Source of the DNA: Terrabacter sp. MAHUQ-38
Lineage (GTDB): Bacteria > Actinomycetota > Actinomycetes > Actinomycetales > Dermatophilaceae
Assembly (NCBI RefSeq): GCF_014518425.1
Contig: NZ_JACVCU010000004.1
Coordinates: forward strand, 124,001 to 188,000
DNA: 64,000 bases
Direction: 5' to 3'
Part shown: positions 1-5,808 of the stretch, in pieces
Layout: every line of letters starts with the position of its first letter
How positions within the stretch are numbered: the first letter of the stretch is position 1
The notes under the pieces: model-generated
Databases searched by the model: none
What the model saw: only the letters and a program-made list of their open reading frames with translations
Told to the model about the DNA's origin: nothing
Program-made: the position numbers and the translations under genes

Positions 1-129
1 GTTGGCGATCGCCTCGGCTACGAGGTTTTGCCGCAACTCAGGGATCTTGGGGGAATCCCACCCTTCCCGGTGCACCGTTCGCGCGAGCATCGTGGTCGCG
101 GCGTGCAGTGCCTTGCTCTTTCTTGCCAT
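1..129 (-). CDS. Partial hypothetical protein of the integrated element
   Basis: An open frame begins with ATG at 129 on the minus strand and runs off the left edge of the window (43 codons visible). The visible peptide starts MARKSKALHAATTML and looks like an ordinary amphipathic helical protein, rich in Ala, Arg and Glu; I do not recognise a family. A purine-rich stretch (AGGAAG) about 12 bases upstream could be the ribosome binding site. It lies downstream of the serine recombinase on the same strand, so it would be the next gene inside the same mobile element. Third-position G/C bias is weaker than in the host genes further right. Being partial and unrecognised, it could be spurious. Confidence 0.35.
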   Translation of the reverse strand, partial: MARKSKALHAATTMLARTVHREGWDSPKIPELRQNLVAEAIAN

Positions 130-376: not shown

Positions 377-1801
377 TCAGGCTCCCGAAGGCCCTCTCCT
401 CGGCTTGATGCTCACAAGCTCGGGGTCGTAAATGTTGCCGCGTCGTGCGGACGGAAGCACCGTCACGGTCATGAGCTCACGCACAACGGCCCGCCTCCGG
501 TCCAGCGCCAACGTTGCCCAAACCGGTTGCGGATCACGTCCCACGAACTGCGCCAGTGCGGATCCGCGAGTCGAATCGGCTAGGGCCGCCTCCACTTGGT
601 CCAGCAGCCGCTGAGTCTCCTCGCTGATCTGGGCCAGCTGGGAGCCGGTGATCCTGCCCTTGATGAACAGATCGGCAGCTTCGCTCTGGCGCTCCCTCAG
701 GCTCATGGCCTCCACCCGCAGAGCCTCCGTGTCCTCCGGTGCTGGGCCGTCCGCAAACACCGTCAGGAAGTCCTCGCGGCTCAGCAGGCCCAGCAGCACA
801 CCCTCCACGTGCTCGTCCACGGCGTTCGCGCTGCGGGCCACATGGCCACCCCCGCCAGCCGGGCAACGGTAGACCGTTCGGGTGGTGCCCTTGCTGCGGT
901 TGCGAGCTGCGGTTGCCGACTTCAGTGGTTGCCCGCACCCTGCCTTGCCGCATACGGCGATTCCCGCGAGCAACCACTTGGCCCGGTTGGTCACTGATCG
1001 TCGGCGGGCAGGGTCGCTCAGCAGCTTCACCACCGCTCGGTGGGTGTCCTCGCTGATGATCGCAGGCCAGGTGAGCCGCCCCAACACCTCACCGTTGAGC
1101 ACCGACAGGCCCGCGTTGCGCGGTCGGGTCAGCACCTGACGCAGGCTCGTGTAGTTCCACGGCCTGCCTGTGGAGGTGCTGACGTTGCGGGCGTTGAGGT
1201 CCGCGACGATGGAGCCAAGAGAAGCCCCGGCCAGCAGCGCCTTGCACGCACCCTGAATCTCGCGGGCCTCGGCGCGGTTCAGGGTGGCCGACCCGTCAGG
1301 CCGGATGTTCCAGCCGAACGGGGGAGCGCCGCCCAGCCAGCGCCCATCCCGCGCCGCTTGGAGCTGCGCCCGCTTCACTCGCTCGGCCTTGTGCTCGCTC
1401 TCCTGTCGGGCCACCGCCCCACGGATGCGAGCGGTCAGCCGGCCGCTGGACGTGGTGAGGTCCAGCTCGCCAGCCTGCGCAAACCGGGTCACGATCGCTC
1501 GGGGCTCGCAGGCCTCGATGTAGTCCTCCAGCTCGCGGGGAGACCGGTGCAGCCTGTCCTCGTGCCAAGCCAGCACGGCGTCCACCCTGCCGTGTCGAAT
1601 GGCTTCCAGCACGGCTGCGTACCCCTGACGCTTCTTGCCGCTGTAGGCGCTCGTGTCGTTGTCGGATTCAACCTGGACCACCTCCCAGCCGAGCCGAGCG
1701 GCGAGCCTCTCGCAGTCCTCGCGCTGACGTGCCACTCCGAGGCCTGCCCCGGTGCGGTCTTGGCTGATCCGGCAGTAGATCACTGCTCGCTTCTTGGTCA
1801 T
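377..1801 (-). CDS. Large serine recombinase (phage/ICE-type integrase)
   Basis: A 474-residue site-specific recombinase that would integrate and excise the element. The N-terminal resolvase domain opens with AVIYCRISQDRTG; the serine at about residue 13 is the expected nucleophile. It is followed by a recombinase (DNA-binding) domain at roughly 160-260, a zinc-ribbon-like Cys cluster at about 285-325 (CGKAGCG...YRCP) and a coiled-coil stretch near 360-410. This order and length are those of large serine integrases such as phiC31/Bxb1. ATG at 1801 is preferred; the frame stays open to a TTG at 1822. The gene begins almost exactly where interrupted cpaF coding sequence begins on the other strand, so its 5' end sits at the element/host junction. 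Codon bias is weaker than in host genes. Confidence 0.93.
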   Translation of the reverse strand: MTKKRAVIYCRISQDRTGAGLGVARQREDCERLAARLGWEVVQVESDNDTSAYSGKKRQGYAAVLEAIRHGRVDAVLAWHEDRLHRSPRELEDYIEACEPRAIVTRFAQAGELDLTTSSGRLTARIRGAVARQESEHKAERVKRAQLQAARDGRWLGGAPPFGWNIRPDGSATLNRAEAREIQGACKALLAGASLGSIVADLNARNVSTSTGRPWNYTSLRQVLTRPRNAGLSVLNGEVLGRLTWPAIISEDTHRAVVKLLSDPARRRSVTNRAKWLLAGIAVCGKAGCGQPLKSATAARNRSKGTTRTVYRCPAGGGGHVARSANAVDEHVEGVLLGLLSREDFLTVFADGPAPEDTEALRVEAMSLRERQSEAADLFIKGRITGSQLAQISEETQRLLDQVEAALADSTRGSALAQFVGRDPQPVWATLALDRRRAVVRELMTVTVLPSARRGNIYDPELVSIKPRRGPSGA

Positions 1802-1840
1802 GTACTCATTGTGACCTAACAAAATGCGGTGTGCCGGGGA
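1802..1840. other. Candidate attachment-site junction (attL/attR) inside cpaF
   Basis: Upstream of about 1826 the sequence is A/T-rich and reads as no part of CpaF. From GGT-GTG-CCG-GGG-ATG (1828 on) it reads GVPGM, which leads straight into the conserved CpaF motif CTVHANS. The recombinase ATG is at 1801. The crossover point must therefore lie close to 1822-1835. The other half of cpaF and the second att site would be outside the window to the left. That this is an att site is inference from gene layout. Confidence 0.6.
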
Positions 1841-2181
1841 TGTGCACCGTGCACGCCAACAGCGCCCGCGAGGCCGTGACGAAGATGTGCACCCTGCCGT
1901 TGCTCGCCGGAGAGAACGTGTCGAGCCGCTTCGTCGTGCCGACGGTGGCAGCGGCGGTCGACGTCGTCGTGCACGTCGCCCTCGAGCGGGATGGAGTTCG
2001 CCGCGTGCGTGAGATCGTCGCGGTGCCCGGTCGAGCCGAGGGAGACGTGATCGAGGTCGCTGACCTCTTCGTCACGAGGGATGGTGCGCTGCGCCGTGCG
2101 GACGGCTTCCCCCCGCACCGCGAGGCCTTCGAGCGGGCCGGCTACGACGTGGCCGCCCTTCTGGCGCAGATGGACTCATGA
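1828..2181 (+). pseudogene. cpaF: 3' fragment of tad pilus ATPase gene (cpaF/tadA), interrupted by the element
   Basis: The last 117 codons of a type II/IV secretion ATPase of the TadA/CpaF class, which powers Flp/Tad pilus assembly at the inner face of the membrane. The fragment starts GVPGMCTVHANSAREAV, matching the conserved His-box region of CpaF, and continues with LPLLAGENV and a VDVVVHV strand to a normal C-terminus. Walker A and the N-terminal domain are missing, and no credible start codon or ribosome site precedes it. The stop overlaps tadB by four bases (ATGA), so it was the promoter-proximal gene of the tad operon. Truncation coincides with the serine recombinase gene, so interruption by the element is far more likely than random decay; the 3' part shows no frameshift or stop. 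Confidence 0.85.
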
Positions 2182-3047
2182 TGTCCCCGCTCGCGATCGG
2201 CCTCCTCCTCGGCGTCGGGGTCTTCTTCGTCTACTGGTCGTTCTGGCCGCAGGAGCAGACGCCGGAAACGACCGGCCGCGGCGGGTTCATGGTGGGGCTG
2301 CGCGACCACCTCACACAGGCGGGCTACACCTCCGTGACGCCGGCAAACGTCGTCGTCGGCTCCGCCGTGCTCTTCGCCGTCGCATTCGTGCTCGTCCTCG
2401 CTGTGGTGCGCGTCGTACCCATCGCCCTGTGCTTCGCGGGGATGGCCGGAGCCGTGCCCCTCGCACTCGTCCGCGCACGGGCACGCAAGCGGCGCAGCAA
2501 GCTTCGCGACCTGTGGCCTGACGTCGTCGACAACATCACGTCCGGGGTCCGCGCTGGGCTGGCGCTGCCCGAGGCGCTCTCGCAGCTCGCTGCGCGTGGC
2601 CCTGCCGAGCTGCGGCCGGCCTTCGCGGCGTTCGCCGAGGACTACCGCACGACCGGCCGCTTCCACGACTGTCTCGACCGGCTCAAGGACCGGCTCAGCG
2701 ATCCAGTCGGCGACCGGATCGTCGAGTCGCTCCGCATCGCGCGGGAGGTCGGTGGAAGCGATCTCGGCAAGCTGCTGCGGACCCTGTCGTCGTTCCTGCG
2801 GGAGGACGCCCGCACCCGGGCCGAGCTCGAGACCCGCCAGAGCTGGACGGTCAATGCCGCCCGGCTGGCGGCGGGTGCGCCCTGGGTCATCCTGGGCCTG
2901 CTCGCCCTCAACGGGGGCTCCCTCGCGGCGTACTCCTCCCCGACGGGCTGGGTGGTCCTCGCCGTGGGTGCGGGACTCTGCATCGTGGCCTACCGGGCGA
3001 TGATCTGGATCGGACGTCTGCCCGAGGAAGAGCGGGTGCTGCGATGA
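2178..3047 (+). CDS. tadB: Tad pilus inner-membrane platform protein TadB
   Basis: A 289-residue type II secretion F-family protein. With TadC it forms the inner-membrane platform on which the Tad ATPase acts during Flp pilus assembly. Hydrophobic segments lie at roughly residues 5-17 and 55-95, followed by the cytoplasmic GspF-type domain (LRDLWPDVVDNITSGVRAGLALPEALSQLAARGP) and C-terminal membrane helices at about 235-280. The gene overlaps the cpaF fragment and tadC by four bases at each side, so translation is coupled throughout. Two consecutive ATG codons (2178, 2181) are possible starts. Because cpaF is interrupted just upstream, its transcription now depends on whatever promoter the element end supplies. 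Family assignment is firm; the loss of expression is inference. Confidence 0.9.
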   Translation: MMSPLAIGLLLGVGVFFVYWSFWPQEQTPETTGRGGFMVGLRDHLTQAGYTSVTPANVVVGSAVLFAVAFVLVLAVVRVVPIALCFAGMAGAVPLALVRARARKRRSKLRDLWPDVVDNITSGVRAGLALPEALSQLAARGPAELRPAFAAFAEDYRTTGRFHDCLDRLKDRLSDPVGDRIVESLRIAREVGGSDLGKLLRTLSSFLREDARTRAELETRQSWTVNAARLAAGAPWVILGLLALNGGSLAAYSSPTGWVVLAVGAGLCIVAYRAMIWIGRLPEEERVLR

Positions 3048-4021
3048 ACGCGGCCGCCCACTGGGACTCGGAGCTGCTTGGCGACGGCTGGTCCTGGGTC
3101 GGCGCAACGGCAGGTGTGCTCATGGCGGCCGGGCTCGCGCTCGTGGTGGCCGGACTTCCATCGAGCCGCCGTCCCACCCTGGACGACCGGCTCGAGCCCT
3201 ACCTGCGTGACACCCCGCGACCGTCGAGCCTGCTGTCACGGCCGGCGCCGGCGCGCGGACCCTTCGGCTTCGGTGAGCTCTTCGCGCCATACGTGGGCCG
3301 TCTCGGCGCCCGGGTCGGAGCGGTCCTCGGTGGCGCGCCCTCGGTGGCGCGCCGTCAGCTCCGGGCAGGACTCCCGGCGGACGTGGACCGCTTCCGGGCC
3401 GAGCAGGTCCTGTTCGGGGCGCTCGGCGGCCTCGGCGGACTCGTCTTCACCGCGGTGGTTGCCGTGGCCCAGCAGCGCTTCCCCGTGCCGGTCCTGGTCG
3501 CGATGGTTCTCGTGGGCGTCCTCGGTGGCGTCGCAGCCCGTGACTACGCCCTCAGCCGGGCCGCGGCACGGCGGGAGGCACGCATGCTCACGGAGTTCCC
3601 CACGGTCGCCGAGCTGCTCGCGCTCGCCGTGAGCGCCGGGGAGGGCGCGGTCGGGGCGCTCGAACGCGTCTGTCGCCTCTCGCACGGGGAGCTCTCCGAC
3701 GAGCTGAGGCGATGTCTGGCCGACGCCCGCGCCGGCGCCAACCTGCCGACGGCCCTCCAGGGTCTCGCCGACCGAACCGGTCTGATGAGCCTGACGCGCT
3801 TCGTCGACGGGATCGTCGTTGCTGTGGAGCGCGGCACGCCGCTCGCCGAGGTGCTTCGAGCCCAGGCCCAGGACGTGCGTGAGGACGGACGCCGCGCCCT
3901 GATGGAGGAGGGGGGCCGCAAGGAGATCTACATGATGGTCCCGATCGTCTTCCTCACCCTCCCGGTCACGGTCCTGTTCGCGCTCTACCCGGGCCTCAGC
4001 TTCCTCCGCTTCAGGCTGTGA
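3044..4021 (+). CDS. tadC: Tad pilus inner-membrane platform protein TadC
   Basis: A 325-residue second GspF-family platform protein. It has an N-terminal membrane helix (about 18-38), paired helices near 125-170, the conserved cytoplasmic stretch EFPTVAELLALAVSAGEGAVGALERV and a last helix ending in the pattern VFLTLPVTVLFALYPGLSFLRF. The length and helix layout fit actinobacterial TadC (Rv3657c-like). ATG at 3044 overlaps the tadB stop. The adjacent order tadB-tadC-pilin-TadE-TadE-TadG matches the mycobacterial Rv3658c-Rv3654c block, which supports the assignment. No defect is visible. Confidence 0.9.
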   Translation: MNAAAHWDSELLGDGWSWVGATAGVLMAAGLALVVAGLPSSRRPTLDDRLEPYLRDTPRPSSLLSRPAPARGPFGFGELFAPYVGRLGARVGAVLGGAPSVARRQLRAGLPADVDRFRAEQVLFGALGGLGGLVFTAVVAVAQQRFPVPVLVAMVLVGVLGGVAARDYALSRAAARREARMLTEFPTVAELLALAVSAGEGAVGALERVCRLSHGELSDELRRCLADARAGANLPTALQGLADRTGLMSLTRFVDGIVVAVERGTPLAEVLRAQAQDVREDGRRALMEEGGRKEIYMMVPIVFLTLPVTVLFALYPGLSFLRFRL

Positions 4022-4080
4022 GACACGGGGCCGGTCCACACACACGACACCCGCACGTCCACCACAGGGAGACAGAAGAA

Positions 4081-4296
4081 ATGAACCGCATCATCACCGC
4101 TCACGTCCGGACGCGCGCCGCTGTCGCGAACGCCATCGCCCGCCGGGTCGCCGGCCCGCGAGACCGTGGCGACGTCCCGGGCTGGGTCCTCGTCACGATC
4201 ATGACCGCCGGACTCGTCACAGCGCTCTGGGCGATCGCGGGCCCGCAGCTGGGCGACCTCTTCAGCGACGCCATCTCGGACGTCAAGGGACCGTGA
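4081..4296 (+). CDS. Flp/Tad-type small pilin
   Basis: A 71-residue protein with a charged leader (MNRIITAHVRTRAAVANAIARRVAGPRDRGD) followed by one hydrophobic segment, PGWVLVTIMTAGLVTALWAIAGP, and a short polar tail. This is the form of the Flp-like pilin next to tadC in actinobacteria (Rv3656c-like). The usual E/Y pair of Flp prepilins is not evident, so the processing site is uncertain. ATG at 4081 has a purine-rich upstream GGGAGACAGAAGA. A longer frame from 4018 exists but lacks such a site. The stop overlaps the next start (GTGA). Confidence 0.82.
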   Translation: MNRIITAHVRTRAAVANAIARRVAGPRDRGDVPGWVLVTIMTAGLVTALWAIAGPQLGDLFSDAISDVKGP

Positions 4297-4829
4297 GGCC
4301 GCGAGGCCACGGCAGGGCACGGGCCCGCTCGGGGTGGCAGTTCCAGCCGCTCCAGGGTCTCGAGCGCTGGGCCGCCCGCTCATCGCGTCTTGGTGACAGG
4401 GCGCTGGCCGGTCGCACCGCCATGGCAATCCACAGGTGCGAACGCGGCTCTGCCGTAGCGGAGTTCGTCATGGTTGCGGCCTTGCTGCTGTTCGTCGCCA
4501 TGGGTGTGTTCCAGCTAGGACTGGCCCTCTACGTGCGCAACACGTTGATCTCGGCGGCATCGGAGGGGGCACGATTCGGGGCACGGGCAGACGCCCAGCC
4601 GGCCGACGGGACGGCGCGCGCGGAGTCCCTCATCACCAACGCGCTTGGCAGCTCCTTCGCCCAGGACGTCAGCGCCTCGCGCTCCGTCACGGCCTCCGGG
4701 GTCCGCGTGGTCGAGGTGAGGGTGTCGGCCCCACTGCCCGTGATCGGTCCGCTCGGACCGTCCGGCTCGCTCACGGTGTCCGGTCGGGCCTTCAGCGAGG
4801 AGCAGGTGGTCGCGGGGGACCAGCCGTGA
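4293..4829 (+). CDS. tadE: TadE-family pilus assembly protein
   Basis: A TadE-like minor pseudopilin. The recognisable core is ERGSAVAEFVMVAALLLFVAMGVFQLGLALYVRNTLISAASEGARFGARA, the glutamate-bearing N-terminal segment and single membrane helix of the TadE family, followed by a soluble beta-rich domain. The annotated start is GTG at 4293, which overlaps the pilin stop. That start leaves 43 extra Arg-rich residues before the core; ATG at 4422 would give a more typical 135-residue protein and is a real alternative. It is embedded in the coupled tad operon. Confidence 0.85.
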   Translation: MRPRGHGRARARSGWQFQPLQGLERWAARSSRLGDRALAGRTAMAIHRCERGSAVAEFVMVAALLLFVAMGVFQLGLALYVRNTLISAASEGARFGARADAQPADGTARAESLITNALGSSFAQDVSASRSVTASGVRVVEVRVSAPLPVIGPLGPSGSLTVSGRAFSEEQVVAGDQP

Positions 4830-5305
4830 TGGGAGCGGAGCTGCTGGTCAGGCGTGTCTCGCGCGGGCGACGCACCAAGGTCGCCGCCGCAGACGAGGGC
4901 CGCGCCATCCTCGAGTTCATCTTCCTCGGGGTCCTGCTCCTGCTTCCGCTCACCTACCTCGTCCTGACCGCTGCTCGTATCCAGGCCGCCTCCTTCTCCG
5001 CATCTCTCGCCGGCCGCGAGGCCGGCCGTGCCTTCGTCACGGCGCCGGACGATGGCGAGGCCTTCGGCCGGGCCCGGGCGGCTGCCTTCCTCGCGTTCGA
5101 CGACTTCTCCTTCGACACGGGAGCATCGGTCGATGTCAGCTGCGACGGCACACCCTGTCTGAGGCCCGAGGGGTCCGTGACCTCCACGGCCACCATCGTG
5201 GTCCAGCTGCCCCTGGTGCCCGACTTCATCGCCGACCACGTCCAAGCCTCGGTGACGATCTCGTCGACGCACGTCGCCACCGTCGACCGCTTCGTGGCCC
5301 GATGA
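4829..5305 (+). CDS. Second TadE-like pilus protein
   Basis: A 158-residue TadE-like protein. A basic N-terminus is followed by ADEGRAILEFIFLGVLLLLPLTYLVLTAARIQAASFSASLAGREAGRA, again with a conserved Glu at the head of a membrane helix, and a C-terminal periplasmic domain with two cysteines (SCDGTPC), perhaps a disulfide. ATG at 4829 shares one base with the previous stop (TGATG), and the 3' end overlaps the next gene by four bases. It probably acts with the preceding TadE as a minor pilin or in pilus maturation; the exact role in actinobacteria is not established. Confidence 0.8.
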   Translation: MGAELLVRRVSRGRRTKVAAADEGRAILEFIFLGVLLLLPLTYLVLTAARIQAASFSASLAGREAGRAFVTAPDDGEAFGRARAAAFLAFDDFSFDTGASVDVSCDGTPCLRPEGSVTSTATIVVQLPLVPDFIADHVQASVTISSTHVATVDRFVAR

Positions 5306-5808
5306 GCAGGTATGCCGTGTGGCTCGTCGGCAGGGGCCGCCACCTCACCACTCGTCCCGGTCTCGATCGGCGGAGCGACGCGGGGCAGATCGGCATCCTC
5401 GTCCTCGGCCTGTTCGTGCTCGTCTCACTTCTCGTCCTGGGCGCCATCGACGTCACGGCAGCCCAGCTCGCGCGGATGCGTCTGCTCGACGCGGCCGACT
5501 CCGCCGCCCTCGACGCCGCGGACGCGCTCGACGAGCGTGCCGCGTACGAGCACGGTGTCGTCGACCGGCTCTCGCTCACCGACGCGTCGGTGGCCGAGGC
5601 GGCCGCATCCCACCTCGCCCGGACCCCGCTGCCACCCGGCATCACGTCCTGGTCGGTCGTGCCGGACACCGGCGTCGCCGACGGGTCGACGGCGGTGGTC
5701 ACGGTCCAGGCCACCGCGACCCTGCCCATGAGCGGCTGGGTGCTCGACTCCCTCGGCGGCAGCGTCACGATCACCGTCACGTCGCGAGCGCGCGCACCGC
5801 TCGGCTGA
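5302..5808 (+). CDS. TadG-like/Rv3654c-like membrane-anchored pilus protein
   Basis: A 168-residue protein with the motif SDAGQIGILVLGLFVLVSLLVLGAIDVTAAQLARMRLLDAADSAALDAADAL. This is the actinobacterial TadG-like (Rv3654c-like) pattern: one N-terminal membrane helix followed by an Ala/Asp-rich region and a small extracytoplasmic domain. ATG at 5302 overlaps the preceding gene. It is the last gene of the coupled tad operon, with a hairpin about 140 bases further on. Function is known only by association with Tad pili. Confidence 0.8.
   Translation: MSRYAVWLVGRGRHLTTRPGLDRRSDAGQIGILVLGLFVLVSLLVLGAIDVTAAQLARMRLLDAADSAALDAADALDERAAYEHGVVDRLSLTDASVAEAAASHLARTPLPPGITSWSVVPDTGVADGSTAVVTVQATATLPMSGWVLDSLGGSVTITVTSRARAPLG

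Follow-up and report, generated by a model that had tools for sequence, protein, structure and literature searches.

A phage-like element inserted in the Flp/Tad pilus ATPase gene of Terrabacter: a probable instance of host transformation disabled by a mobile element

The stretch of DNA analyzed here (the window, 64,000 nucleotides corresponding to G000:C13:124001-188000, G000 being the window genome, Terrabacter sp. MAHUQ-38) carries close to its left edge a large serine integrase gene on the minus strand (380..1801, with the ATG at 1801 and the stop at 377-379). Searches with Pfam and PHROGs found both the Resolvase and the Recombinase domains in its product (PF00239, 1.4e-26; PF07508, 1.7e-10; phrog_95 integrase, 1.6e-96). 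The gene is the right end of an element of 8,733 bp (the distance between the inferred crossover dinucleotides), most of which lies to the left of the window. Next to it, on the plus strand, begins the 3' part of the gene for the Flp/Tad pilus ATPase, cpaF/tadA (1831..2181, residue 297 to the stop); CpaF starts here in mid-protein beside the recombinase, as a preliminary description of this DNA had noticed. The 5' half, which that description proposed to look for left of the window, ending at a common core, was found on the same contig (C13:116210-117097, locus L006), and it runs up to the element's left end.

The left junction (...AACAGCGGGGTACCAAAAATTG...) and the right junction (...AAAATGCGGTGTGCCGGGGATG...) share the codon register, reading Gly-Val-Pro (residues 296-298). 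In attR an element arm (half of attP) covers 1806..1830 of the plus strand, followed by the putative crossover dinucleotide GT at 1831..1832, which is also present in attL at C13:117098-117099, and by the host arm (half of attB) at 1833..1857 of the same strand, corresponding to cpaF codons 297-305. The element arm and its counterpart on the left side of the element form an inverted repeat, the two ends carrying GTGACCTA and TAGGTCAC. By computation, the attP arms were inverted around the GT at 16 out of 25 positions and the attB arms at 10 out of 25; among 100,000 random arm pairs taken from the element, 14 scored 16 or more. Shifting the axis of the attP inverted repeat raises its score up to 17/25, and other dinucleotides of the short common stretch would give the same joined protein as the GT. 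Direct repeats between the element ends were in our search limited to short words (the longest of 10 bases), as expected for serine integrase sites. The site as a whole has a short common core (a GT, by inference), dissimilar attB and attP and inverted attP arms. When the cpaF flanks were joined in silico, a single open frame of 413 aa resulted, identical to the intact CpaF of the relative G170 over the 104 codons tested. The proposal that a serine recombinase element occupies a protein-coding attB within the Tad ATPase gene is thus borne out by the two cpaF parts with their common codon register, and the idea that precise excision would restore the frame agrees with the joined gene.

Regarding the gene content of the element, beside the integrase there is a 72-aa ORF on the minus strand whose N-terminal part is at 1..129 and which runs on left of the window (L006:12911-13129). 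By its position it is a candidate directionality factor, with no match in Pfam or PHROGs. Phage genes, also looked for to the left following the preliminary description, appeared within the element: an HK97-type major capsid protein (phrog_10, 4.8e-36), a replication initiator (phrog_270) and an HNH nuclease (best PHROGs match phrog_1872). There are, besides, a gene for a bPH/SHOCT protein, another for a protein of 502 aa with a sub-threshold match to AlbA_2 and no PADLOC hit, and small ORFs. No terminase or portal match was found among the ORFs scanned with Pfam and PHROGs, some of the small ones being outside the scan. The best matches among phage records were 39% identical for the integrase and 29% for the capsid. 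The element is probably a phage satellite or remnant.

On the other side of the insertion the tad operon continues on the plus strand with tadB (2178..3047; T2SSF PF00482, 1.2e-10), tadC (3044..4021; T2SSF, 2.1e-17), targeted by integrases at its 3' end in relatives, a small Flp-like pilin candidate (4018..4296), tadE (4419..4829; PF07811, 8.5e-13), a TadE/F-like candidate (4811..5305) and a TadG-like gene (5302..5808; PF13400, 1.1e-7). Both candidates were assigned by position, the first being conserved between tadC and tadE in relatives, and gave no Pfam hit. The tadB, tadC, tadE and TadG-like genes are open frames with Pfam matches, so that the operon does follow cpaF without decay, as had been described. 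Elsewhere in the genome there are two further intact T2SSE ATPases (C12:751478 and C12:712696), the counterparts of the first in relatives being 38-43% identical to CpaF, and ComEC is present as an open frame.

We have compared both parts of the interrupted cpaF with six intact relatives. The dN/dS values were 0.041-0.070 for the 5' part (0.033-0.075 between intact pairs) and 0.025-0.065 for the 3' part (0.021-0.054 between intact pairs). The idea of an old pseudogene found no support, given that both parts stay near the intact pairs, a result that a recent insertion would give as well. These low values fit equally a recent insertion and a continued use of the gene after excision. The second case would correspond to a reversible pilus switch, a form of active lysogeny comparable to that of the comK phages, in which conditional excision would restore cpaF and the pili, to be followed by reintegration. 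The frame restored in silico, the intact integrase, the low dN/dS of both parts and the open downstream operon are all compatible with it. However, a recent insertion predicts the low dN/dS just as well, no directionality factor is found among the identified genes of the element, and the repeated insertions by different elements described below need no benefit to the host. We consider such a switch quite improbable.

An uninterrupted cpaF was sought in relatives, and six of the nine genus genomes (G170, G171, G172, G174, G175 and G176) have an intact gene that reads across the insertion site, i.e. an empty attB. In the other three (G000, G173 and G177) the gene is split, each time by a different element. 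The preliminary description had also considered that relatives might carry the same truncated fragment without the recombinase; what the other two interrupted genus genomes carry are elements of their own. In G173 the split is at codon 297, as in G000, and was produced by a distantly related integrase belonging to another deep clade. In G177 (Terrabacter tumescens JCM 1365) it is at codon 210, in the Walker A motif. The 10-kb element within the cpaF of G173 contains a Pycsar cyclase with a membrane effector (L080, 10946-12522).

At the level of the family, 162 of the 186 genomes retain the 3' end of cpaF (E to 1e-15), and 16 of these 162 showed a same-contig split, i.e. the two parts were in the same orientation on a single contig, with one insert of roughly 4 to 74 kb between them (G000, G164, G173, G177, G099, G160, G100, G147, G139, G080, G007, G111, G123, G075, G004 and G162). 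The insertions were located near residues 84-92, 113, 143, 167, 210, 231-236 and 297, in conserved parts of the protein like Walker A. A serine integrase was found beside cpaF in 11 of the 16, and the inserts of G123, G075, G004 and G162 contained PF00589 tyrosine recombinases. In the remaining one, G080, one of the two insert proteins scanned was an IS110 transposase and the serine integrase query gave no match. For every one of the nine serine integrase genomes scored, joining the two parts produced a stop-free cpaF that keeps the register of intact CpaF, G173 and G147 being left out of the scoring; the joins of G147 show stops because the tested stretch enters a second insertion. This last genome (Pedococcus sp. 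5OH_020) has two elements within a single cpaF (L088 and L069), the one at codon 210 measuring 4.6 kb and encoding a SIR2-domain protein, the other, at codon 236, about 74 kb. The integrase of G164 (L067) is 67% identical to that of L006 and is found at the same cpaF codon, with the two elements oppositely oriented relative to the gene. Two apparent cases were not counted: in G051 the two contigs overlap by 55 bp to give an uninterrupted sequence, and in G130 the supposed insertion looks like a frameshift instead. Also outside the 16, having cpaF on two contigs or as a single piece, were G016, G044, G045, G058, G064, G073, G074, G121, G124, G167 and G180.

As a control we have used a TadA paralogue. 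Among the matches listed, no same-contig split was found in 67 full-length rows from 66 genomes, counted at E below 1e-200, a level under which a split copy would rank. The further rows listed (to E about 1e-71, a level that shorter fragments would not reach) included three partial matches with 66-80% identity, two of them at contig edges and one (G181) in a single frame. The comparison of 16/162 splits in cpaF versus 0/67 in the paralogue, among the matches listed, gave a Fisher p of 0.004, a value that ignores kinship and serves only as a guide.

In order to see what related integrases lie beside, we carried out a census of the 67 found by similarity to the window integrase among the 186 family genomes. 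The first 1.5 kb of the start-side flank was compared with the tad-operon proteins, CpaF, ComEC, ComM, DprA and YraN, and ten flanking proteins were checked with Pfam. Slightly more than half (35/67) were within 0.5 kb of cpaF, tadC/flp, comM or comEC. Specifically, 15 were beside cpaF, seven at the 3' end of tadC or in the gap to flp, eight beside comM and five beside comEC. One more adjoined a CpaF paralogue, and the other 31 were next to different genes (e.g. luciferase-like genes, DUF222, M24 peptidase or MPG). Among the cpaF cases are G045 and G058, in which the integrase adjoins cpaF, and G086, where cpaF is intact and the integrase adjoins a separate fragment. Five of the seven tadC/flp cases (G150, G084, G184, G043 and G003) have the cpaF of that operon on the same contig as well. 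In G025 tadC is divided between two contigs, and in G068 (L027) the flp/tadE side adjoins the integrase and no cpaF, tadB or tadC was found within 57 kb on the other side, so that an insertion in tadC is here an unproven assignment. The comM cases include G172, in which the integrase is between the end of comM, about 7 kb off at the far end of the insert, and dprA, which starts 254 bp from the integrase. In the five comEC cases the gene is cut near residue 30 of PF03772 and a short N-terminal match appears 28-89 kb away; in G068 this match is below the Pfam cut-off, and in G067 it is weak (E 0.08).

Several of these loci deserve individual description. In G067 (L144 and L145, contig C6) the comEC parts, with the weak N-terminal match just mentioned, are 89 kb apart and there are two identical serine integrases some 44 kb from each other, as if two related prophages were placed in tandem. 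G160 has both cpaF and comEC interrupted, each beside a serine integrase (L157 and L086). The ComEC domain of G095, G102 and G146 is in two adjoining pieces, a pattern that resembles a frameshift rather than an insertion. Six near-identical integrases (L149, L151, L153, L154, L155 and L158) were found in four genera, four of them beside a luciferase-like gene (identified by eye, and by Pfam in L154).

The census is biased toward the kin of the window integrase, since the search began from one that targets cpaF, and the share beside these genes decreased with the identity to it (13/15, 12/20 and 10/32). PF07508 was found at 144 places in the 186 genomes, among them the 67 of the census; the 35/144 that results (24%) is a floor, since the other 77 places are outside the census. 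Taking the family data together, an alternative is that cpaF is just a neutral landing pad, a conserved and dispensable sequence in which the loss of the pilus costs little and from which the element gains nothing. The location of the insertions in conserved sequence, Walker A among it, is what would be expected, and so are the 31 census integrases beside unrelated genes. Against it, the TadA paralogue showed no same-contig split in the 67 rows among the matches listed, separate integrase lineages as well as tyrosine recombinases reach cpaF at different codons, and two further targets are the 3' end of tadC and comEC, whose product is not known to be a P-loop ATPase. We regard a neutral pad as rather unlikely.

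Beyond the family, we searched named genomes with an alignment of cpaF-associated integrases, a query with a similar bias, and analyzed the best 80 of 320 loci, four of which repeat genomes of the family set. Among these best 80, 51 were within 400 bp of transformation-pathway genes, in 11 named families, the targets being CpaF (37), ComM (9), ComEC (2), DprA, TadC and Flp (one each). The CpaF was a more distant one in 11 of the 37 cases within the best 80 of 320 (ten Streptomyces and one Nocardia). In the ten Streptomyces loci (L190, L193, L197-L200, L202, L204, L207 and L208) the integrase adjoins a CpaF-like gene that has 39-47% identity to the query and aligns with it from Walker A onward (residue 209-211). 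The equivalent scan of viral contigs gave 80 loci, 54 of them with at least 300 bp of start-side flank; five had a CpaF-like gene within 400 bp of the integrase and one ComEC, numbers that say little either way because many provirus records begin at the integrase.

We have grouped 143 integrases by single linkage at 50% identity, resulting in 54 clusters. Cases at cpaF, tadC/flp, comM or comEC appeared in 26 of them, 25 had other targets only and three a cpaF paralogue. The cluster of the window integrase included 10 cpaF cases, nine of comM (one via the neighbouring dprA) and seven others. In a tree of 66 integrases several separate lineages reach cpaF: codon 297 is used by two, 210 by at least two and 236 by one (98*), with single rows at codons 84, 87 and 92. 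This tree comes from a quick, short search in which some forks are left open, and L087 (G100) was left out for its length.

Natural transformation in Actinobacteria has been the subject of few studies so far. In the account given for Micrococcus luteus, Flp/Tad pili are needed for transformation, which was abolished by gene deletions in either tad cluster, both being necessary, with the exception of tadB, whose deletion gave a drop of over 100-fold (Angelov 2015, PMC4322843). The correspondence of the G000 cluster to a M. luteus tad cluster was judged by gene order (separate tadB and tadC) and not by sequence. It has been argued that insertions in competence genes (comYC, comFA, comK and comM) let elements avoid deletion by transformation (Croucher 2016, PMC4774983), and competence genes are described as strongly enriched among serine integrase targets, with a Mg-chelatase homologue in the lead (Durrant 2022, PMC10083194). 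In the family analyzed here ComEC was found in 180 of the 186 genomes, so near to universal that its presence says little, and we discarded it as uninformative for a co-occurrence link. The Mg-chelatase homologue that heads the published targets we take to be ComM.

Our main explanation, which we consider probable, is that the cpaF insertion of G000 is an instance of host transformation being disabled by mobile elements. The 8.7-kb phage-like integrative element would have recombined its attP with the coding attB at codon 297 of cpaF/tadA, and the truncated ATPase would lose its ability to power the Flp/Tad pilus. Judging from M. luteus, an actinobacterium whose DNA uptake depends on pili of this type, natural transformation would then be blocked, and with uptake blocked the element could no longer be removed by homologous recombination with element-free DNA. 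The gene may then be a favoured landing site whose inactivation protects the resident element, and the same protection would account for elements found next to comM, comEC and tadC. If this integrase excised the element again, cpaF would be repaired exactly. Regarding the preliminary description as a whole, the element in a coding attB, the reading frame and the open operon all hold; its pilus switch, understood as beneficial to the host, fits less well than disabled transformation, since many elements hit cpaF, comM, comEC and tadC.

Tad pili serve as phage receptors in some bacteria, and the element might remove the pilus to exclude competing phages. Defence genes are present in some of the cpaF elements (those of Pycsar in G173 and of the SIR2 protein in G147, for example), but the insertions of related integrases in comM and comEC would be irrelevant to a pilus receptor. 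We find superinfection exclusion very unlikely. Returning to disabled transformation, a wider proposal, on which our opinion is evenly divided, is that the Tad ATPase, tadC, comEC and comM are a common battleground across Actinobacteria, where many integrase lineages have evolved landing sites and switched among them since silenced transformation protects them. If this were true, there would be genomic evidence of a wide DNA uptake through Flp pili in Actinobacteria that threatens the resident elements, and related integrases shifting between comM and cpaF inside one pathway would be evidence of selection on target function. The natural knock-outs and their sister strains are on hand for the idea of an intragenomic conflict, and the analysis also yields a collection of serine integrases whose coding attB sites are orthologous.

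The phiRv1-type small prophages or satellites are around 9 kb and have a serine integrase, an HK97-type capsid, a replication gene and an HNH nuclease. By content the G000 element is like them in all these features and in size, differing in that its capsid is 29% identical to the best match in phage records. Listeria comK prophages are the case in which a serine integrase element sits in a coding attB and its regulated excision restores the host gene. The G000 element shares the coding attB and the precise excision that would restore the host gene, although the gene is another one and in size the element falls far short of a full phage. Elements that disable transformation genes are of a kind already known (comK, comYC, comFA and comM). 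In open-licence literature (titles and starts of abstracts) we found no insertion in cpaF/tadA, and within that literature, supplements apart, the Tad ATPase as a target, its several sites and the recurrence across actinobacterial families appear to be new. As in the competence gene insertions of PMC4774983, as presented there, different elements repeatedly interrupt transformation genes at conserved sites; here, unlike in those cases, the target is the actinobacterial Flp/Tad pilus ATPase, hit at several codons, and the main text of that article has no occurrence of tad, Flp or Actinobacteri. The main text of PMC10083194 has likewise no occurrence of 'pilus' or 'tad'. With the comM-targeting serine integrases treated in it, our cases have in common the choice of competence genes as targets, and there are integrases, clustered with that of the window by single linkage at 50% identity, that adjoin comM.
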